Shown in pieces: positions 1 through 57,076 of a stretch of 64,000 nt of DNA. Numbering within the stretch: position 1 is the first letter of the stretch; each line of letters begins with the position of its first letter. Under the pieces are notes generated by a model. That model searched no databases. It worked only from the letters and a program-made list of their open reading frames with translations, and was not told the DNA's origin. Source of the DNA: Loxodes magnus (Eukaryota > Ciliophora > Karyorelictea > Loxodida > Loxodidae); contig CAMPDV010000022.1 of the NCBI GenBank assembly GCA_946699065.1, positions 1,251,501 through 1,315,500 on the forward strand, in the 5' to 3' direction. The position numbers and the translations under genes were made by a program.

Positions 1-3000
1 GTTTCAGCAAGTTTCTTGCTTAAAAGGATTATTTGAGGGAAATACAATGGAATAAGCCTTTTAAGAGATGAATAAAGATCAAATAATAATGCTCATAGAT
101 GAAACAATCAAGATAATTAAGAACAGCTTTATTAATAATAAGTCCCTAAGTCCAGAAGATCGCTAATACCCTATAAGAGAAGTTTAGCTGCTAAAAATGT
201 GTTCTAGTCCTGGTGGAAAAGCATATCGATTGGTTTAAAATCACATACTAGAAAACTTTATTTTTAAAAGCATAGAAAAGAATAATGCAGTCATATCTGA
301 ATTTATATTCGACTATTATAGAGATGAAGAAGGTATCTGATACTTCGTAAAAGATGAAGCTCAAAAGGATAATTAGCATCTTGTTAAGATAGTAAATTAA
401 GATGAGCAGAATTATAAAGCTTAATATTAAGAAATGTAAAAGAAACCTGAAATCTATCATAGTGTTCTTTTAGACTTATATATCAGCGTTAGCCATCAGT
501 CTAATATACTCGCTCAAAAAACACTGCCATTCCTTATAAATCCTGAACTTATTTTTTATGTCTTGGAGAATTATAAGAAATACCAAAAGAAAGCTAAGAA
601 GAAATGGATCTAAATACTACTGAACCTTTATATAAATAGCTATAATTGTCCTATCATTCTTAGACAGCCAAAAGCTATAATATATGAAATGAATTCTGCT
701 GATGAAAAATAAGTATTGCTTGAATAAGGTCAAGTCTAAATCTTCATAAATGATTACTTCGACACGCTCCCCTTAAGAAAAGATCCATAAGAGCTAATAG
801 GAATTCACGGTAACATAGAAATGATTTATAACAGAAGAAAAATGCTTAGGTACTGACTGTTTTCTCAATTTTCAGTCGAAAATGTGAATTTAGCAAACTA
901 TAGCAAAGATAACTTAAACTACATTCATGTCTTTTTATAAGTTCTATGCAAGCTTATTCAGTAGAATTTCTTTGACGATAACTATGATAACTTTATTAAG
1001 TATTAATTAAAGAAGCAGAAGAAAATATGTTCTGATTATACCGAAGAATTGTATCAAAAACTCTTAGATGAAATTAAAGAACCTGAACATAAAGATCATC
1101 TTATAAAACTAAAAGCTAAAAGCCAAAAAATAGAAGCTCAACATATATACAAAGCTTTGAAGATTTGACTATCCTAAACTTTGGTATTTGCTTAGCCTAG
1201 ATATCAGAACTTAGATAATATGCATGAATACTATGAATGCTAGAGAAAAGAGGGAAATATCTAAATTGCTATATAGATTTATATTTACGAAATACTGCAA
1301 GCCATATATAATTAAAATTCCATTCTTAGTACAGATGTTGTTATTAGCCAAATTCAACTTTAGCTTCACTAAGATTTGTTAGCAAATACTTTCATACAAC
1401 TTCCTAAAATTTACCTTGAAGAAAATAGATGGGCAAAAGTCAAAGAACTTGAGGAAGCTACAGTTATGAAAGGCCTTTTTATGATTAGAGATGACTAGAA
1501 TAAAGAATAAAAAAAGAAGTTTTAATAAGCAGTCAAAAATAAGATAAAGACCAACTGAGATGTAATTAAAGGCTTATAAATGAGTGAAAATGGATATTAT
1601 CAGTCTGACTATTTAGTTTAAGTTGTATTTGATTAGAAAGCTTATTTAAACTATGAGCTTAGAATCAAATCTGAGATTTTCCTTCTGTAGCATTTGAATG
1701 ATATTACTAATCAAGCTAGTCAACTTGAAAAAGTCCTTCCTATTTTCAATTAATACGAGTATGTTCAGTTTATCAGATTTTAAAACTTAAGTTCCCAATT
1801 TTAATCTCTGCTTAGTAAAGAAGTAATTGAATTCGATGAAAATGACTATAATTTCCTAAATGCTTGTTTCAAATAACTCCCTGAAAAAAATGGACCTCCT
1901 GGCTTAATAGATATGTTTTATACTTAAGGCATTCAAAGTCGTAAGTGTATAAGCTGCTAAAGATGAAGGACCAATTTAAAATAAGCTAAAGATTGTTGCT
2001 CCACGAAAAGAAAAGAAACTTACTTTGCTGATGTTTACGATATTTAGTCTAATCAACAATTCTTATTAGCAAAATTCAAGCCACTGTAGAGACTAATTAA
2101 TCTAATTTTTGAATTGGCCTAGAAGCCTAACTTTGATAGTCTTCTCCTAAATCCAAAATTTTAATAGATGTTTTAGAATTTATATGAGTTTTGATATTGC
2201 CTGATAGTTGGAAATAAATATACGATTAAGAAAACATGCAAGGTTATTACAGACTAGTTCTTCAACATTATGTGATCGCATATTTTTAAGATCTAGCTTC
2301 ACTTCAGTGCTATTAAGGTATTAATTGAGTTCTGTAAAGAAAACGCGAAGTGCAAGTAAAGACTTAATAGATGTGAAATTACAGAGCTTAGTCAGTTACT
2401 TGACTTATAAATATGGAATTAAGAATAAAACTTCGATGTTAAAAATGAGGAGCATCTGGCCAATGCAGTTTACCCAACTCAAGTTTTGAATTTGTTGCAG
2501 TAAATTATTATAAATGATGAACACTTTGATAACACTTAAACTATTTTCAACTTTATTGTAAACATTTTCTTTGGAAAGGAAGCTTTGAGAAAGGGAGTTA
2601 TGTTTTAAGAAAAGAAGAAGAAATTAGGATAAAACAAATCCTTAAGTTACAATGTTTAATAAGCAATTAAAGTGCTAAAAAACCCAAGAAATCCTTGTAG
2701 CTAAACAGATTTCCACTTAAGAATGCTAGAATTTTTAACTTTCCTTTCAATGGATGAAAATATTTCAGGATACAGTTAACGAAGAGCATTCATGTAGAAT
2801 TATATATCAGCTAAGGATATAGTCGAAATCACTAGTTGCTAATAAATTCCATTTCAGAACAAAATGCCCTTTTATATGATTTTCCTATATCACTACGTAA
2901 GATTAATGGATTGGTGATACAGTAATAGCACAGAAGAAAATATGAAGCAGAGTTTTAAATTAGAATTCTTTTATGAAGATAATGGAAAATGAATCCAAAA

Positions 3001-6000
3001 GTTATTGGAAGAAGCTCATTCTAGTATTGATTAGCTTATTAAACTTCAAAAATAATGGGACTACATAGTCATTAGAAATGACTAAAGTAATATTGATGAA
3101 CAAACCAATTTAGTTAGATCAGCTACATTTTACAAAGAAACATCTTATAATCTTTTAAGGCTCTTGAGTAATATTTGGTAAGAAGAATTAATTCAAACTT
3201 CAGAGAATATTCTCTAAAAGCAAACGGCTATAAAAATCAGAGACTCATTCACAAAACTTGCTCTAAAAGTTTGTGAAATTAAAAACTGAAACTTTTTATG
3301 TGAGGATAAATACAATGCATGAGTAGTAAATTTCATTTTCAGATATAGTAATCTTCAACAACAAACTTCGCCTATTATTTATGGAGAAGATACTACGAAT
3401 TCGCAGCAGAGATAGAAAATGCAGAAGTGATATAATGATTTTGTAAATGCTTCTAATATTTTTAAAAATACTCATTCCAATTACACAAACAACCTTTAAT
3501 CTAACTACCAAAGCATATAAAAATACGTAGCTAAAAGATGTGCTCAAGTTAGTAACTAGTGGAGAATTCTATAGGAAGAAGACTAAACTTAAAAATATAT
3601 AAAAAATGAAGGCCAAAGTGAGATAGAGTTATATAAATTAGTAAAGAAATAATTTAAAAAACCTGCTCCTAGTTTCTGAATTTATTAAAAGCTGTATAAA
3701 GATTTTCTGTTGAGCTTAATTAATGGTAACTATCTAAAGGGAGCAGGTAAAGATAATAAAAGTAAAACTTTTGCATACCTAAAATGATTATTATAGAGAA
3801 CGCTTGGAAAATAAACTTATGATAGATAATTTGATGATTACATATAAGGAGGCAAATACATACTTAATAACATATTTATAGATAACATTCTACTCATGAA
3901 ATATGAGCCTTCTTACTCAGTCATGTTTGCATAAAGTTGCTATTCAATAATTATATAATCAGGAATTCATCCAGATCTAGATGAACTTAACAGTTTTGTA
4001 GCAAACAAAAAGCAATTAAATATTGCCGATTTAATGAAAGTTATAGCAGTTCCAATGATTAAATATGTATAGCTAGTAACCAGCAATTGCCACAATAATT
4101 ACTTAGACTATTTCTTGACTGGAAAAAACTTAAAAATTTATGAACAGTTAAATAAAAATGCTAATTCATTACTCTGGTTAATAACCATTTACTAAGACAG
4201 TGAAAGTAATACAAATATCTAAGAAATCTTCTACCAATAAACACTAGCTAATCTATAGATGTCAGAATGGGAATATCTTACCATGGAAGATAAAAACAAA
4301 AACCTAAATTTCAAAAGCCTCCTTGCAGAGAATGAAAATCCTAACTAAAATCGTCATTTCACTTAAATTGCAAACTTGATTAAAATTTGGTGTGAAGCAG
4401 TTGAAACTGAAGACTAATATAAAGAAGATAAGAAAGGGCATTGACGGTTCTCCTATATAAGACTTTATAATATGATTGAATAAAATATGCTAGTATTTAA
4501 AAATCTGACTGAAGGACATAACTAGAAATTATAAACATTAATGAGAAAACAAACAGAAGAATTTAGCATTAATATGCTAGAATATATTGATGTTCTTAAT
4601 ACAACTCTTTTATCTAAATTGAATTCCTTTATCTAATACTATAAGCAAGATTAGTTTGACTCCAATCTATAAGAAGCTCTTAATAAGTTCCCTTTTCCAA
4701 CAAATCCTAATAAAGCTGTTAAATTTATTGACTGGGAAGCGACTGAAGTTCAAGACAATGTAAAGTTTTGGGATCTTCCATTAATTAAACTTACTTAATC
4801 TATTTATTTAGCACTAATCGAAATCTTATAAGGTCCAAATTCGGAAAATTAAGAATATCTGACAGAAACTGAAATATTCAAACAAATAGCTCCACTTCTA
4901 GAATTCCTAGCATCTGCTAATTTTAGGTAGCCTCTTGGATAGATTCTATGCTTCGAAAATTAAGAAATAGTAGGATGGGATTCTGGGAATTGGAAAAGTC
5001 TAATGCAGCTTTCAAAAATTTCATAAGAGATTCATATTGGCAACAAGAAAGGTAACAAGAAAGGTAACAAGAAAGGTAACAAGAAAGGTAACAAGTCTTA
5101 ATATTCACCACCTGAAAGATAAATAAGCTATGATATAGAAAAAAACGTACTAGTATTTTTAAATAGTATGGTTGAAGGAAGAGCCTAGACAAATGATAAA
5201 GTCTTAAAATTCCTTTATGATAATTTAGATATCGAACTACTATTTTCAAACTTGCACTATCATATTATGTAGGAAAAACTTTACAATAGTGACTAAACTA
5301 GAAAGCAAGTTATCATGAACTATTATTCATTTTTGAGAGTCTTAGCTGATAACTTAACTTAAGCTTAAGAACTTAAAGAACAACTTAGTGAATGGATTAA
5401 ACTAAATAAGCTAGATATTGAGTAATACGTTTGCAAAGTTGAAATCCTTGATAAGACTTAAAAGCTTAAAACTCTATATTTCTCAACTTAGATTAAAAAC
5501 ATAGAATATTTTAGCGATCCAAAGATTTAATAAGCAAAGAAAGATCTAATCAATTAAGTAAGCAGAGACAATCCTGAAGAAAAAATGAATCAGTTTTGTG
5601 ATGTAGCTGAACGCTTAATTGAGATGATTGAAAGAATGGCTGAACTTAATGAGAAAAGCTAAAAAGGATACTTTTTTGATAAGTTCATTTATTAGTTCAT
5701 CATTTAAAGAATGAAGCATATACGTTGGGTTTTGTACGCTGCCTCATTTCTATGTAACCTAATGTTCTTGGTTTTTACAAATTCTGGTAATACTGAATCT
5801 GGCATTTCTGGAGGTACTGATTATCCTTTTGTGGAGTTTGTTTGGTTTATACTTAAAGGTTTACTTTTATTTTACTCCTGGACTTTCTTCTGTAACCAAG
5901 TAATAATGGAATGCTGACTTGATAAGCAAGATGTTTTACAAGATATAGAAGAACAAAAAGCGATTTACTTTAATAAAACTGGAGATCAACTTAAAATAAC

Positions 6001-6805
6001 ACCGTTTCAAGAATGAATGCAGGTATTTAAGGGAGTCTGCTTTACATGGAATTTCTAATATAAATTCTTCATTTTCATAACTTCAGTTCTTGGGTTTTTC
6101 TATACACCTTTTACCGGACTATCTATGCTAATTTTCCTTTGTGAGCATCAAGTAATGCGAACAGTTCTGCTTAGTGTATTCTTGCATATTGACAAAGTAA
6201 TAGCAACGTTGATTGTTACGTTAATACTTTTTTACTGGTTCACATTATGGGCTTACTTTAGTGGAATGTATAATCACTATAGTTTCACATCTGATTAAGA
6301 ATGCAGCACGCTTTATAGGTGCTTTAGATGGCATTTTGATCTTGGATGGATGAATGTACCAGAATATTAAAACTACTAAGATCTAAACAGCAGTAACAGC
6401 ATTTTAGTCTATAACTTTACCTATACTTTACTTATTAATTTGATTACTACAGCAGTTATTAGTGGTATCATCATTGATACTTTTAGTGATATGAGAAGCT
6501 AATAAGAAGCGCTAAATGATGATAACAATAATGTCTGCTTTATATGCAGCATAAAGCGAGAAACTTTTGAAAGAGCTGGAATCAAATTTGAATATCATGT
6601 CAGGCAGGAACACAATACTGATTACTATATTTGGTTGTGAATGTATCTAAAATACTTACCAAAAGAAGATTAAAACGGCATAGAAACATAACTTTACAAT
6701 CTAATCCAGAAAAATGAGTTCGTTAAGTGTCTTCCAATAAACATTAGTAGCGAATTCAATAAAAAGCTTTATGAAAAAGAGAATCTTGAGCAAAATGCTA
6801 GCTGA
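1..6805 (+). CDS. IP3-receptor-like (ITPR/RyR superfamily) calcium release channel, 5' truncated by the window
   Basis: Read from base 2 with TAA/TAG as Gln and TGA as Trp, this is one uninterrupted frame of about 2267 residues with no intron. The N-terminal four fifths is helical solenoid-like sequence. Membrane segments lie near residues 1904-1925, 1945-1965, 2015-2045, 2066-2086 and 2132-2155. The last runs into GIIIDTFSDMRSQ, matching the IP3R pore helix end (GVIIDTFADLRSE). Next comes CFIC...H-x4-H in EYHVRQEHN, the zinc-binding linker typical of IP3 receptors. The family releases stored Ca2+ from ER or alveolar membranes. The usual GGGIGD selectivity filter is not recognisable; C-x-TL-x2-C precedes a DLGWMNVPEY stretch instead. 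The stop is taken as TGA at 6803-6805 after EQNAS. The N-terminal ligand-binding region lies outside the window. Confidence 0.88.
5042..5095 (+). repeat. In-frame 12-bp tandem repeat encoding NKKG units
   Basis: Four and a half near-perfect copies of a 12-bp unit (AACAAGAAAGGT) lie inside the IP3R-like gene. Because the unit is a multiple of three it encodes a basic NKKG repeat and keeps the frame. It lies in the cytosolic part, before the membrane segments. Such a repeat can change length by slippage without breaking the protein. Confidence 0.95.
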
Positions 6806-16188: not shown

Positions 16189-17881
16189 ATGCAAAATATT
16201 AAATCTTGATTTAAATGTAATTGCGAGTTTAACAAGGGGAGAAATCTCCCAAAAAAGCTAGAATGCTAGCATGTTTTATGTTTCGATTGTATTTGAACTA
16301 TGTACTAATAGGAGAAATAAACTACATGTCCATGATGCAATTAAATTACGTAAAAAGATCCACTTGATCTTGAAATGCCTTTTACTCCTGGAGAGCTATT
16401 TTTATAGAAAGATCTTTGCTAGATACATAAGAATCAAGAAAAAAATTATTTTTGTCGAACTGATTATGAAACTATTTGCTAAACTTGCTCTTTTTCTAAG
16501 GCACATTAAAATCATTTTATTTAAGTTGTCACTGAAATAATAGAAGACTTTAAATAAAATGAAGTTAAGCAAGCTTAAGATTCAAAATTAGGAATATAAA
16601 TAAATTTAGAAGCATATAAGCTAGAACTTATCAAAAGATTAGAAGAAATATAAAATTAAGCTGCTAAATATAAGCAAGAAGTTACTTTATCCTCAGAAAG
16701 GCTTATTTAACTCATTAACGAAAATCTTTAAATATAAATATAAAACATATAGAATACTTGCCAAGCAATCAGTTAAAAAATAGAAACTGAAATGAAGAAA
16801 GTGAATGAAATGCTAGAGATAACACATACATGTTTCGGTTAAGATTCAGAAAATTTAAGTGAATTAATAAATTTTATAAAAAATGTGCAAAATCTGACTA
16901 AACAAAATCTAAATATAAATCTTCTGGAATTAAAACTCAATTACAATAATAATTCTTTAAAAATAAACGAATTGCTAAATGGATTTATGCAGTTTGAAGC
17001 TATTGAAACTATAAAGAAGGTCACTCCATATAAGAAGAAATTTAAAATTAATTTTCGAAATAAAAAAAATGAAAAAAAACTAGAATTAGAAGTCTAAAAC
17101 GATGACCAAATAGAAAAGTTATAAAATTTAATTCTTGAATAAAAAGGATTAAGATAAGAGTGATACAATTTGTTCTATGAAGATCAAAAGTTAGAAAGCA
17201 ATTAAACTCTATGCGATTATGGGATAGAAGAAGGATAGACTCTGCATCTAATATTTTTAGAAGGTATGTCATAAGTTTAGAATGTAAGTAATAGTAAAAT
17301 AAGACTGTGGCTTATTTAAATTAAATTAGATAGTAAACTTTCTTTAGATTATAGCCAGTGGAGTTTTATTACATTATTTAGAACGTAACAGATAAAATAT
17401 TAGATAGTAAGTTTAAATGATTTAGTTTGTAAGCAACTTAATGATCAAGATAGTAAATTTTATAAATTATTCAGTTTGTAAATATTAATAGATATTAGTT
17501 CGTAGGTTTTTAATTGCAATCAGACGGTAAGAAAATTTAATCTTTGCTAGAAGGTTAATTTTAACATTTCTATAGAAGGTAACTCATTTCATTAATTTAT
17601 TTAGAAGGTAAAAATTAATTTTTAAGAATGTAATATTTTTCAGTGCAGGTGGTAAGAAAATCTAAATTAGCTTGTAATCAAAATTATTATAGAATGTAAA
17701 ATTATTTAAATTAAAGGCTGTATAATTTATAATTCTTAGAGCGTAAGTTTATTAGCTTCAGGTTGTAATTTTCTATGAATTCAAAAGATAGTATTAATAC
17801 TAAATTAATTTAGATTGTAATTATAACTACATAAGGGGGTAAAATAATTTATCAAAGAAAGTATTTCTTAATTAAGGTTGA
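16189..17881 (+). CDS. TRIM-like protein: RING, B-box, coiled coil, ubiquitin-like domain and a C-terminal microexon array (paralogue 1)
   Basis: ATG 16189 opens a RING-type zinc domain. Its ligands are C10-x-C12, C26-x-H28, C31-x2-C34 and a CPWC pair near 46-49; the first pair is C-x-C, not the usual C-x2-C. A B-box follows near residues 76-112 (CQIH, YFC, ICQTC, H-x2-H), then a coiled coil. A ubiquitin-like fold spans residues 284-358 (QNLILEQKG, YNLFYEDQKLESNQTLCDY, TLHLIFLE). This layout suggests an E3-ligase-like or ubiquitin-pathway scaffold in the cytosol. At 17263 the frame enters an array of 26 tiny introns around 25 three-nt exons. Splicing them all adds 26 residues ending CAQCQRYNWES and a TGA stop, for 384 residues in total. 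The paralogue starts at 20569. Confidence 0.88.
17264..17876 (+). other. Microexon array 1: 25 exons of exactly 3 nt between 26 introns of 16-26 nt
   Basis: From 17264 the sequence is an unbroken alternation of GT..AG segments (17, 20, 23, 22, 24, 19, 19, 21, 22, 21, 22, 24, 22, 26, 19, 19, 19, 19, 21, 20, 19, 23, 23, 19, 19 and 16 nt) and 3-nt exons. The first exons are AAT 17281-17283, ACT 17304-17306 and ATA 17330-17332. The last are GGG 17836-17838 and AAA 17858-17860. The total of 538 intron bases plus 75 exon bases fills the interval exactly. All introns are phase 1, so each exon supplies two bases of one codon and one of the next. The last exon is GT plus TGA (17877-17881). Donors are mostly GTAA; acceptors mostly TTAG or AAAG. 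Confidence 0.9.
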
Positions 17882-18900: not shown

Positions 18901-19210
18901 ATTAATTTCAACTATAAAAGTTTTTGGACCGGAAACTCCTTTCCGATTGCACGACCCGACGCTCTCTTTTTATGGAATAACTGGAATATCCTGTTGTGCT
19001 CCAGGCACAGCTGCTAGGGAGCTCCATCGCTATGAGCAGCCTGGCTTCAAGCCCTACCTAGAGCGGATAATCTCAAAGACAGCGTTCCCTTCAGAAAATG
19101 GCTCTGACCAGGGACTTTCTCAGCGACAGGAAAGGAACTTATTCCTAGCCATAAAACCAGAAAGTGTTGTCACGAAGGTCATTCTCAGCTCCCACCATCT
19201 TTTCAATTAT
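18901..19210 (+). repeat. SINE-like repeat, copy 1, with a 15-bp target site duplication
   Basis: A ~310 bp block, far richer in G+C than its surroundings, is shared with 26161-26470 and 56760-57076. It is flanked by AAACAAAATGCTTTT (18886-18900) and AAACAAAATACTTTT (19211-19225), a 15-bp duplication with one mismatch, so it was inserted by retroposition. GGCTTCAAGCCC near 19042 resembles a Pol III B box; an A box is not clear. It can be read as a 124-codon ORF, but differences between copies are mostly amino-acid changing, so I treat it as non-coding. Confidence 0.8.
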
Positions 19211-19225
19211 AAACAAAATACTTTT

Positions 19226-20025: not shown

Positions 20026-20250
20026 CATGTTCTTGGACCTCCAACAAGTAGATAAGATTACGAGTATTCTAAAATTATATCAGTGTTGAACATTTTTATC
20101 AGTACTGAATAATTATACCAGTATTGAACAAGGTTTATCAGTATCTGATAATTTTATCAATAACAAACATTCTTGTCAGTATGAAACATTTTTTTTAAAG
20201 AGCTGCGTACCAACGAGAGTGCTACGCGCTCTATAATCCAATTTATTTAT
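20026..20250 (+). repeat. Hairpin-ended repeat, copy H1 (plus orientation, 5' truncated)
   Basis: About 215 bp matches the reverse complement of 48505-48730 closely. Inside are degenerate ~20-bp subrepeats built on TATCAGTATTGAACA. The right end is a stem-loop at 20199-20232 (AGAGCTGCG... and ...CGCGCTCT) followed by TATAATC and an AT tail. The homology stops at 20026, whereas the 48.5 kb copy continues into a GC-richer body. That fits a 5'-truncated retroposed copy whose hairpin marks the 3' end. Confidence 0.75.
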
Positions 20251-20568: not shown

Positions 20569-22814
20569 ATGTAGAACAAAAAAATTTGCAACAAATGTAT
20601 TATGAAGTATGACAAAATTCAACGTTTACCAAGAAAATTAAAATGTGATCATGTTTTATGTTAAGAATGCGCAGAAAAGATTTATGAGTAGCATTTTAAA
20701 ATAATATGTCCTTAATGCAAATAAGTCACTAAAGTTTTGCCAAAAGATCTAAGTTTAGTTATTGACTTATGAGATAAAGATCCTCCTAATAATTGCAAAA
20801 TTCATACAAGCTAAGAAAGAATATTCTTTTGTAAAAACGACTTTGACGCAATTTGTCTTATTTGTGCTTAGTCAAAACAACATTAAAGTCATAAAATAAG
20901 AGAATGCTCTTAAGTTATTGAAGAAATCAAATAAAACGAGTTTTTAACTTCATTCAAGATGAAGAAAACAATTGAAGATTCATTAATAAGCTTCTAGCAA
21001 ACGCTTTAGCAAAATTAATAAAAAACTGAAACTTAATTTAGTTAATATAAAAATGAAATAACCCAAAGCGCCAAATGACTAGTTACTCAAATTAATAAAA
21101 TATAGTCAGAAAGAATATAATAATTAGAAAGCAGCGAGTAAAAACTGAAATAAAAATTCAGAGCTGAACTTCAAAAAACGGAATAGTTTATAAAATAAAT
21201 GGATGATTCCATGCCTCAAGACTAAACTAATCTGATCGACCTGATTGACTTTATTAAAAAAATGCAAGTTTTTTAAAAGCAGGAAATTAATACGAATGCA
21301 ATAGAAATAAATTTTACCTATTAAGATGAATTTTAATAAATATCTTAGCTAGTGAAAAACTTTATGCAATTTAAAATTTAAGAAAATATCTAGAAGTTTA
21401 ACCCTCGTGCAAATTCTAATCTGCATTTACTCTAAAGACAATACGAAGAAAAAGTTGCAAATTAAATAAATGAACAGAAAGAAATAATCTTTATTAACAT
21501 AAGGAATAAACTTAACAAAGTGAAATTAAATTTTTAAATGGATAGTGCAGAAACTATAGAGAATTTAAAAGAAAAAATATAAAAATAAGCAGGATTAATC
21601 CCTGAGTTCTATGGACTTTTTTTCGATGGAGTTAGATTAGAAGATTAGTGGACTTTAAAAAATTATAATGTTTAATAGGGTTCAAATATTATGCTGCTAT
21701 TTTCAGAATGTAAGACTCTTATTTAGAATGTAAGAAATGAAATAGATAGTAAACTATTTATTTATCTAAGGTAAGTATTGAAAAAGACGGTTCTTTATTA
21801 ATTATAAAGGTATTAATTTTAATTTGCTTAGCTGGTATACAATTAAAATAAGCCAGTATCCTTTTCCCAATTTTAAGGTAATTTAATTTAGTTAAAGGTT
21901 GTAATTTCTTTAAATCTTAAGGTAGTAAGCTTGTAAAAATGCAAAGGTCGTAAGAATATTTTATTCGCAGATTGTAAATGCTAAAAAATCTTTAGTGCGT
22001 AAGAGTTTATCACTTAAAGGTATATAATCACTTAATACATACAGGTAATTCAAGATAATTTTATAGACTGTAACCACTTTAAAATGGTCATATAGTTCGT
22101 ATTTATTAATTCTAAAATAGGTAAGCTGAATAAGAATCTTTAGATTGTATTTTACAATTATTTAAAGGTATCTAATTAAAGAAATTATAGGTAAGAAAAT
22201 TTAAAGTTCGAAGCAAGTATTTTAATTAATAACTTTTAGCTTGTAATTTTTAAATGCTAAATAGGTAATTTTTTGAATTTAAGGGCGTCATTATTTAAAT
22301 TTTATGCAGGTGCTTTTCTAATTCTTTAGTTCGTATTAATTTAAAATCTCTTAGGTATATTTAATTATTTCAAAAGCTTGTAATTTTATAAAAGTGATTA
22401 GGTAAGTTGATTTATGAAGCTTGTAATAAATATAAGTAAATACAGCTTGTAAGATATTTGACTATTTACAGAATGTATGCTACCAAGTTTTAGAGGGTAT
22501 TTACGTTATTTATTATAGGTATTTTTAGTTTTATAAAAAGCTTGTAAAACCATGACCTATTTAGGTGGTAACGATTTAATAGAATAGGATGTAAAGATTC
22601 AATTATTAAAGATTGTAACTAATTAAGAATTTAGGCTGTATAATTTTTATCATTCTAGAGAGTAAATTAATTGAAATATACAGAAAGTAAACTCCTAACT
22701 TAATAGGATGTAAGCAGCATTACAGCTAATAGTTTGTAAGCCTAGATTACATTTAAGGGGGTACTTGGAAATAAATTTATAGAAAGTAAAGTTTTTATAG
22801 TTTCATAAGGTTGA
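20569..22814 (+). CDS. TRIM-like protein: RING, B-box, coiled coil, ubiquitin-like domain and a C-terminal microexon array (paralogue 2)
   Basis: ATG 20569 starts MQNKKICNKCIMKYDKIQ. The RING ligands are C7-x2-C10, C-x-H-x3-C-x2-C (CDHVLCQEC) and CPQC. A B-box follows near residues 76-112 (CKIH, FFC, ICLIC, H-x2-H). A long Gln-rich coiled coil comes next, then a ubiquitin-like domain at about residues 305-380 (NLKEKIQKQAGLIPEFYG, GVRLEDQWTLKNYNV, IMLLFSE). The first exon ends at 21709 in phase 1. An array of 47 intron-sized units then carries 33 three-nt exons. Full splicing adds 34 residues ending CGYCQKRFWES and TGA 22812-22814, for 414 residues. The domain order is that of the gene at 16189. 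TGA is read as Trp in AKWLVTQ but stops at the end. Confidence 0.88.
21710..22809 (+). other. Microexon array 2: 33 exons of 3 nt plus 13 direct AG|GT junctions in 47 intron-sized units
   Basis: The pattern of array 1 recurs over 1.1 kb. Three-nt exons include AAT 21727-21729, ATA 21746-21748, CTG 21832-21834, TGC 21996-21998, GAT 22588-22590, GGG 22758-22760 and AAA 22783-22785. Between them are GT..AG units of 16-26 nt. At 13 places an AG is followed at once by GT (for example 21770|21771, 21809|21810, 21877|21878, 22019|22020, 22044|22045), so the exon is zero nt or the two units form one composite intron. The junctions are absent from the last 11 codons, which match paralogue 1. Every step is phase 1. 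The terminal exon is GT plus TGA at 22810-22814. Confidence 0.87.
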
Positions 22815-26160: not shown

Positions 26161-26470
26161 TAATTAATTTCAACTTCAAGAGTTTTGGACTGCAACTTCT
26201 TGCCGTTTTATGACCACAACACTCCCTTCATAGGATAACGGGGATATCCTGTTGCTTTCGAAAAGCAGCTGCCAGGGAGCTCCATCGCTATGGGCAGCCA
26301 GGCTTCAAGCCCCTACCAGGAGTGGATAATCAAAAGGAAGGCGTTCCCTTGCAAAGGTTGATTTTGACCAGGGACTTTCTCAGCGACAGGAAAGGAACTT
26401 GTTCCTAGCCATAAAACCAGAAAGTATGATTCAGAAGGTCAATCTCAGCTCCCACCATCTTTTTAATTAT
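26161..26470 (+). repeat. SINE-like repeat, copy 2 (most diverged)
   Basis: This is homologous along its length to the blocks at 18901 and 56760, with the same 5' start (TTAATTTCAACT) and 3' end (CACCATCTTTT plus AATTAT). It carries several small indels and substitutions in the first 170 bp. The B-box-like GGCTTCAAGCCCC is intact. No clean target duplication remains, so it is the oldest of the three. The indels break the reading frame that copies 1 and 3 share. Confidence 0.75.
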
Positions 26471-26652
26471 ATTAGTTTTTAAATTAAACTAATATAAATT
26501 AAATATATTTAAATCAACTCAGTGATATTTACATTTAACTAGCAGGCTAATTCTTTCATAAATCTTCTGATAAATTTTAAATATTTGAAGAATCTTATAA
26601 ATGTAATAAAAATCCAAAAGATCATATGAAAACTGCATAGAAGCAAATTATA

Positions 26653-48504: not shown

Positions 48505-49010
48505 AGATAAATAAATTTGATTATAGAGCGCGTAGCACACTTGTTGGTGCACAGCTCTTTAAAAAAAAATTTTCATACTGACGAGAATGTTTGTTACTGA
48601 TAAAATTATCAGATACTGATAAGCCTTGTTCAATACTGGTATAATTATTCAGTACTGATAAAAATGTTCAATACTGATATAATTTTAGAATAATCGTAAT
48701 CTTTAATACTTGCTGGAGGTCCAAGGACATGGCAGGATTGTATCTCATTGCATCACCAAAGCAGAGGACGTCATGTGTCAATTATGGGTACTTAAATTCC
48801 CCACCTCTGATGAAGCTCGCAATATTATTTCTTTTTCGTTCCAGAATTAAATCCAAATTAAGCCAGTGCCGAAGGTCTAAGAATCTTATGTCTCGAGGTC
48901 AAACCAAAGCAGAGGAAAACATAAAGTCGATTATGGGTACTTAACTTCCCTAACCTCTGATGAAGATGACCTTATTGTTCACCTTCGAACAACTATGGCG
49001 GTTTTAAAAA
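48505..49010 (-). repeat. Hairpin-ended repeat, copy H3 (minus orientation, longest)
   Basis: The stem-loop is at 48525-48558. The next 170 bp match the reverse complement of 20026-20240. At 48731 homology to H1 stops, and a GC-richer body continues to about 49000. The body holds two ~62-bp direct copies (48755-48815 and 48902-48965), each running from GCAGAGG through TTATGGGTACTTAA to CCTCTGATGAAG. The ends of each unit (CAGAGG and CCTCTG) can pair. This copy shows what lies upstream of the truncation point in H1. Confidence 0.72.
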
Positions 49011-56759: not shown

Positions 56760-57076
56760 AATTAATTAATTTCAACTAAAAAAGTTTTTGGACCGGAAAT
56801 TCCTTTCCGATTGCACGACCCGACGCTCTCTTTTTATGGAATAACGGTGATATCCTGTTGTGCTCCAGGCACAGCTGATAGAGAGCTCCATCGCTATGAG
56901 CAGCCAGGCTTCAAGCCCCTACCTAGAGCGGATAATCTCAAAGACAGTGTTCCCTTCAGAAAATGACTCTGACCAGGGACTTTCTCAGCGACAGGATAGG
57001 AACTTGTTCCTAACCATAAAACCAGAAAGTGTTGTCACGAAGGTCATTCTCAGCTCCCGCCATCTTTTCAATTATG
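56760..57076 (+). repeat. SINE-like repeat, copy 3, with a perfect 15-bp target site duplication
   Basis: This is nearly identical to copy 1 over about 300 bp. AATCCATAAAGTATT is present at 56745-56759 and again at 57077-57091, so this insertion is recent. Element ends are (AATTA)ATTAATTTCAACT at 5' and CATCTTTTCAATTATG at 3'. There is no poly-A or simple-repeat tail. GGCTTCAAGCCCC near the middle is B-box-like. Changes relative to copy 1 would mostly alter the encoded residues if it were translated (Ala/Val, Gly/Asp, Glu/Asp, Ala/Thr), which argues against a protein. Confidence 0.82.

Follow-up and report, generated by a model that had tools for sequence, protein, structure and literature searches.

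Can the C-terminal part of a protein be encoded in such a way that an intron follows every codon? This question is raised by a gene (gene 1) of the karyorelict ciliate Loxodes magnus, located within a stretch of 64,000 nt that was analyzed as a whole and is referred to here as the window. A first-pass annotation had proposed that 25 consecutive 3-nt exons, separated by 26 introns of 16-26 nt, directly follow the ubiquitin-like domain (UBL) of this gene, with all junctions in phase 1 and with a last exon composed only of GT and the stop codon TGA. Each of these elements was recovered in our analysis: the parse of the interval (array 1) is exact, the introns (538 nt in total; GT..AG ends in 26/26 cases) and the triplets fill it arithmetically, the GT + TGA exon was found at its end, and the junction with the exon that ends in the UBL is in phase 1 (Table 1). 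In the large coding exon of gene 1, whose start codon was picked by eye (the Pfam scan covered positions 16207-17263), the ubiquitin match (PF00240, E = 1.1e-11) spans residues 281-349 of 352, i.e., the end of the exon; the other matches are zf-B_box (1.4e-08) and zf-RING_UBOX (1.6e-04, below the cut-off). The spliced tail of gene 1 past the UBL reads E-YYTKHIYIFHEEEECAQCQRYNWES-stop.

Table 1. Features of the two array-containing genes (positions are those of the window).
Feature	Position	Strand	Content
Gene 1, large coding exon	16189..17263	+	RING (below cut-off), B-box, coiled coil (by eye), UBL
Array 1	17264..17876	+	25 one-codon exons (3 nt each) between 26 GT-AG introns, which measure 16-26 nt; phase 1 throughout; exact parse
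Gene 1, last exon	17877..17881	+	GT + TGA stop
Gene 2, large coding exon	20569..21709	+	RING (below cut-off), B-box, coiled coil (by eye), UBL
Array 2	21710..22809	+	47 GT-AG introns, 16-26 nt each and 1001 nt together, 33 exons of 3 nt, 13 internal AG|GT junctions
Gene 2, last exon	22810..22814	+	GT + TGA stop

The longest chain of GT..AG units (15-27 nt), each followed by 3 nt, comprises 26 units in array 1. Copies simulated with a third-order Markov model yield chains of no more than 4 (60 copies, whole window) or 5 (2000 copies, array 1 segment), and an origin by chance, which had been called extremely improbable from the outset, was therefore rejected. With exon lengths of 1-12 nt other than 3, no chain longer than 3 was found on either strand of the window.

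The array of gene 1 is genuine, but not unique to that gene: a second one is present in the window, and many more occur genome-wide. Apart from array 1, the only strong chain in the window, both strands considered, is array 2. It begins right after the UBL of a paralogue (gene 2), whose large exon matches ubiquitin (5.2e-14), zf-B_box (3.7e-05) and zf-RING_5 (3.9e-04, below the cut-off). A complete path through array 2 was obtained by allowing exons of 0 or 3 nt only, and its AG|GT junctions represent either zero-length exons or ~40-nt introns with an internal AG|GT. When exons of up to 30 nt were permitted, the array scored 42.4, whereas none of 20 Markov copies of the window scored above 3.3. 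The spliced tail of gene 2 reads E-QYNAASCSHLHFHSTWLPSSQQACGYCQKRFWES-stop, and in phase 1 both genes share the C-terminal end C-x-x-C-Q-(R/K)-x-x-W-E-S-stop; TGA terminates both tails and is found inside neither of them. Zero-length exons (AG|GT), the GC-AG ends of some introns in other arrays and the use of TGA also as a sense codon go beyond the first reading of gene 1.

TRIM-like E3 proteins are composed of a RING, a B-box, a coiled coil and a variable C-terminal part. Gene 2 and locus L044 may have a layout of this kind, with the B-box and UBL above and the RING below the cut-off, and the coiled coil recognized by eye only. A protein homologue search with gene 2 yielded 1423 candidates, none at E<=0.001, and tblastn against phage records gave no match. 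Seven relatives of gene 2 (L002-L008), whose matches to it extend no further than residue 274, outside the UBL, have no array in the DNA examined.

The genetic code used in the window (TAA and TAG for Gln; TGA for Trp inside genes and as a stop at their end) is that of karyorelict translation table 27, which is also described for the 706-Mb macronuclear (MAC) assembly of L. magnus in the relevant part of the genome paper, with UGA read as Trp within genes and as a stop near their end (PMC11441545). Gene 1 has in-frame TGA codons in its UBL and its RING, and a neighboring RyR/IP3R-like gene contains 17 TGA and 23 TGG in 2200 codons. The latter gene (window 2-6700, + strand, frame 2) runs for ~6.6 kb without introns and matches RIH_assoc (E = 2.9e-05, below the cut-off). 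Plain code 6 was rejected, since TGA is a sense codon inside several genes. The array genes, too, need the Trp reading, because TGA occurs in frame in 40/1931 of their phase-1 codons.

The introns of the arrays fit the spliceosomal type of this species in that they are GT..AG, mostly 16-25 nt long, and have dinucleotides that are conserved between copies. Their mean length is 20.7 nt (n = 1791) and counts drop past 24 nt, the parser having demanded GT..AG ends and at most 26 nt; L. magnus introns identified by RNA-seq average 19.3 bp and do not exceed 25 bp in 93% of cases, according to the intron section of the same paper (PMC11441545). Lengths that are multiples of three (606/1791 in the arrays of L039-L058) are not depleted, unlike in ordinary L. 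magnus introns, in which that section describes their relative depletion (PMC11441545). GC-AG ends, plus a few putative AT-AG and GA-AG ends, were observed among the introns of a large family of related loci (family A; here L052, L053, L055, L062 and L066).

Across the genome (706 Mb), a pattern with three successive 3-nt exons has 971 matches, compared with 12 for the reversed control. The corresponding pattern with 2-nt exons has 22 matches (control, 6), 21 of which look like one repeat family, and that with 0-nt exons has 7 (control, 21); the recurrence is thus specific to 3 nt among the lengths 0, 2 and 3. The first 100 matches considered out of the 971 fall in 38 loci (inverted copies counted separately), and by extrapolation the genome likely holds a few hundred array loci. 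Twenty of them (L039-L058) were retrieved, and contain 35 arrays that reach the threshold, whereas 624,600 Markov bases contain none on either strand. Together with the window, their exons are exactly 3 nt long in 1216 of 1379 cases and 0 nt in 44, a count that took lengths of 0-12 as equally likely a priori and is biased by the choice of loci with a 3-nt pattern. The longest array extends over 5.5 kb and has 227 introns, some of them separated by longer exons, and its longest unbroken run comprises 97 consecutive 3-nt exons. Near-identical inverted copies were observed on the same contig in two cases: (i) L039 and G000:C89:735247-740130, and (ii) G000:C16:266715-267413 and 344864-345566; they are either true palindromes or joined haplotypes.

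The domains encoded upstream of the arrays were identified by a Pfam scan of 16 loci in the frame that continues into the triplets (phase 1; phase 2 in L043). A UBL (PF00240, E up to 5e-4) precedes the array in 14 of these: above the cut-off in eight (the two window loci, L039, L041, L044 via L071, L047, L049 and L050) and below it in six (L040, L046, L052, L053, L055 and L058), of which L053 passes for Ubiquitin_2. Most loci with a UBL have a RING or B-box before it, while L039 has a protein kinase; in L043 a kinase is present and no UBL was detected, and L051 gave no Pfam match. By-eye inspection of L045 and L054 revealed no UBL. A genome search with PF00240 returned at least 150 near-identical ubiquitin rows and was of no help in counting the array genes. 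The spliced tails themselves matched no Pfam family (4/4 tested).

The explanation that we favor is that the array genes really code for proteins and that their C-terminal tail, which in most cases follows a UBL, is very probably encoded and spliced codon by codon. Each tail codon would be split (1+2) over a spliceosomal intron of 15-26 nt, with nearly every exon being 3 nt long, sometimes 0 and rarely longer. Exons of 3 nt cannot be recognized by exon definition, and splicing of the transcript would probably rely on intron definition and proceed from 5' to 3': every intron removed would extend the upstream exon by 3 nt and put the next GT beside a long exon, the 3' site being picked by a length rule (an AG ~15-24 nt from the GT). 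With this order, zero-length exons would be ordinary. By duplication and deletion, the arrays may gain or lose intron + codon units without ever shifting the frame, and exon skipping would be frame-neutral likewise, so that the tail could vary freely. Single exons of 3 nt are known; we know of no precedent for the splicing of dozens of consecutive ones.

Whether neighboring triplets are joined was addressed with a linkage test on 10 arrays outside family A (997 exons; 1000 shuffles of the exon order). Mutual information between the last base of an exon (e3) and the first two bases of the next one (e1e2) is far above that of the shuffled arrays (z = 12, reached by 0/1000 shuffles), as expected for codons split over an intron, while the same linkage is absent at lags 2, 3 and 4 (z of 0.3, -0.5 and 0.5) and in the reverse direction (z = 0.7). 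Linkage of e2e3 with the next e1 is also above the shuffles, though weaker (z = 5.9), and codon log-odds rise with the true exon order in phase 1 (z = 6.0, the highest value) as well as in phase 2 (z = 3.2). Since other groupings depend on the order too, the linkage shows the joining of the triplets better than it shows their phase.

The same test bears on a special case of the favored explanation, not exclusive of it, in which different subsets of codons would be included in each mRNA, giving many tails per gene. In favor of such combinatorial inclusion, none of the exons in the two window arrays would shift the frame if skipped, and the 13 AG|GT junctions of array 2 show that codons can be missing with both introns kept; the linkage, in turn, implies that neighbors are usually joined to each other, and we consider this special case rather unlikely.

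The assignment of codon-by-codon splicing to phase 1 is based on the UBL frame and on the counts of Cys, Glu and TGA. With shuffled exon order as the control, Cys is enriched in phase 1 (92 vs. 59, sd 5) more than in phase 2 (53 vs. 45, sd 5), and Glu behaves similarly (73 vs. 55 in phase 1, 58 vs. 56 in phase 2), while Trp is not enriched by the exon order (36 vs. 38 shuffled); TGA occurs in 71/1983, 40/1931 and 144/1931 codons in phases 0, 1 and 2, respectively. When read over successive 3-nt exons, family A paralogues have a common motif, VLKKYWKYxETREEY. Single-base codon differences between copies are synonymous in 140 of 403 cases, all at codon position 3, versus 16% for random changes (13 of 16 arrays were aligned by a motif-search script, and, the copies being related, the events are not independent). 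A conserved Trp is encoded by TGG in some family A copies and by TGA in others.

These observations have to be set against a reading in which the whole array, from the first GT to the last AG, is removed as one composite intron, with the triplets being no more than relics or decoys, and the protein ending soon after the UBL. It avoids the splicing of 3-nt exons, and leaves the frame open, as all junctions are in phase 1 (GGT TGA in gene 1). It would, however, lead one to expect neither the linkage confined to lag 1, nor a paralogue motif with synonymous changes, nor a Cys enrichment that appears only when the exons are read across the introns in phase 1. Composite introns of 613-5500 nt would also be a misfit in an organism with the intron lengths reported in the corresponding section of the genome paper (PMC11441545). 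We regard a composite intron as improbable.

Codon-by-codon splicing is further consistent with the conservation of the intron ends. Between copies, the splice-site bases differ in 2.3% (G1), 4.5% (T2), 0.9% (A-2) and 2.0% (G-1) of comparisons, whereas in the same comparison the bases of the intron interiors differ far more often (G 49%, T 19%, A 13%); the positions were taken from the parse of one copy only, and the aligned bases from 13 others (14 copies). The GC content of the three triplet positions (0.31, 0.27 and 0.31) is coding-like, compared with 0.12 in the intron interiors. A depletion of competing AGs was dropped as evidence, since the position-controlled value for AG is 0.51, but those for GA and GT are 0.60 and 0.62; the depletion of internal GT in the introns equals that of TG. 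Taken together, the cross-intron base linkage, the paralogue motif and the conserved splice dinucleotides argue for one intron per codon as the best reading of gene 1, as proposed in the first-pass annotation, and further support, likewise drawn from sequence comparison, comes from the paralogue with the same C-terminal end and from the 3-nt specificity of the genome-wide recurrence.

Family A is large (at least 150 matches to its UBL) and its arrays contain a central block of 27-bp units, each composed of a nearly constant 24-nt intron, GTAAGATATTTTAAATATTTATAG, and a varying triplet. In L060, with 48 such units, the diversity is 0.040 in the intron interior and 0.43, 0.56 and 0.75 at the three exon bases; across six arrays it is 0.034-0.216 and 0.39-0.76, respectively (computed over all units with 24-nt introns). 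In pairwise comparisons over whole family A arrays, exons appear to change ~2 to 8 times faster than introns, a rate that may reflect misaligned repeated units; the excess is gone in the constant block, in which the exon bases (0.165/0.240/0.223) are no slower than the intron interior (0.186), with the wobble base being the fastest. Neighboring introns are alike in all four family A arrays tested (z of 6-9). In the window arrays, lag-1 likeness does not differ from that of shuffled arrays (z of 0.6 and -0.8), with z = 2.8 for array 1 at lag 4, and among 10 arrays outside family A it does not exceed that of shuffled ones in 9, the exception being L041 (z = 2.6). Codon strings or triplets recur above shuffles (p<=0.01) in four of eight arrays and not in the other four. 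The likeness of the introns and the recurrence of codon strings point to a process of unit duplication in which the codons diverge but the introns remain similar. This divergence may reflect diversifying selection acting on the tail, with a mutational cause as the alternative.

The near-identical tandem introns of family A and the recurring codon strings are also what one would look for in a minisatellite of ~22-27 bp units without a coding role. Such a reading is at odds with the neighboring introns of the nine other arrays, which are no more alike than shuffled ones, with the variation of unit length while GT, AG and the 3-nt spacing stay, and with the coding-like GC content and linkage of the triplets; we consider it very improbable.

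A search for intronless copies of the spliced tails was negative for the 150 candidates scored out of 412, all of which end within residue 96 of the query (UBL, 1-75), and a second search for a contiguous tail copy, which included no positive control, found none either. Matches that run past the end of the UBL were judged to be translated intron, because one of them, C59 (the L060 locus), is so by its coordinates.

Ciliates excise DNA during nuclear development, and on this general ground the 16-26 nt pieces could be imagined to be removed as DNA (internal eliminated sequences, IESs), or else to be skipped by the ribosome; this is scarcely credible, given that their ends are GT-AG, and in some cases GC-AG, as in spliceosomal introns, that the genome agrees in size with the published macronuclear assembly (706 Mb), and that no canonical IESs were found in L. 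magnus according to the pertinent section of its description (PMC11441545).

How do the arrays, if spliced codon by codon, compare with known genes rich in small exons? The exons of schistosome micro-exon genes (MEGs), ~6-36 bp long, and those of aphid bicycle genes are longer than one codon. MEGs are summarized as fast-evolving genes whose coding region consists mostly of very small symmetrical exons (PMC4350168, in a passage citing DeMarco 2010). The array tails resemble them in being built of symmetrical tiny exons (25/25 in gene 1 and 33/33 non-zero exons in gene 2, for which only lengths of 0 and 3 were allowed), the skipping of which keeps the frame, and in evolving fast; they differ in that their exons are at the one-codon floor, with up to 97 in a row, in their introns of 15-26 nt, and in their association with UBL, RING, B-box and kinase domains, and common descent is not indicated. 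Bicycle genes are described, in the parts of the source on gene structure, as having many unusually small internal exons, nearly all of one phase (phase 2) and ~17 per gene on average, and a single gene, megacycle, has >100 microexons in 11 of 12 aphid genomes (PMC9168663). Many small exons of the same phase and highly divergent proteins are shared with the arrays, which, however, are in phase 1 and belong to UBL proteins, unlike the phase 2 insect effectors of the bicycle type.

The array introns resemble those of the tiny-intron ciliates (L. magnus itself, Stentor, Nyctotherus and Paramecium) in their length of ~15-25 nt; for Stentor, 15-16 nt is stated in the relevant section of one report (PMC9505925). 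The AG|GT junctions of array 2 resemble recursive splice sites, i.e., zero-length exons; known sites of this kind lie inside long introns (PMC8605326, PMC6110457 and others), while in array 2 they join introns of ~20 nt. In the open literature on microexons, 3-nt or zero-length exons and tiny introns of ciliates (most subscription papers and preprints lie outside it), we found no gene with an intron after every codon, and the sections covered of the main text of the L. magnus genome paper (PMC11441545) mention neither short exons, UBL or ubiquitin nor an array of one-codon exons. Nor did we find in this literature any part of a gene in which every codon is an exon, from 25 to nearly 100 in a row.

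If confirmed at the RNA level, the arrays would define how small consecutive exons can be and reveal codon-by-codon splicing by intron definition, providing a natural system for testing processive splicing. Tails of this kind would probably escape standard read mapping and gene prediction, so that many of the gene models for this genome would have to be revised. The combination of near-identical introns and hypervariable codons would offer a way of diversifying proteins without risk to the frame. Going further, it is conceivable, though we propose it only tentatively, that the arrays constitute a genome-wide device to evolve, and perhaps to choose, protein sequence residue by residue in UBL-linked proteins with RING, B-box or kinase domains, which probably number in the hundreds: the introns would serve as frame-safe recombination joints between codons shuffled like cassettes, the readout would be processive from 5' to 3' and possibly combinatorial, and the tails may be the hypervariable recognition parts of an E3- or kinase-based system of self/non-self recognition or defense.

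The window contains two other repeated elements. A GC-rich element of ~300 bp occurs in three copies of the same orientation in AT-rich DNA (18916-19220, 26183-26471 and 56780-57075), the second and third being 81% and 95% identical to the first, respectively; Rfam gave no match in the window at gathering scores, and none for the first copy of this element at E<=1. At positions 20071-20190, ~120 bp consist of 19-bp repeats, with a 96% identical inverted copy located 28 kb away (48568-48686).
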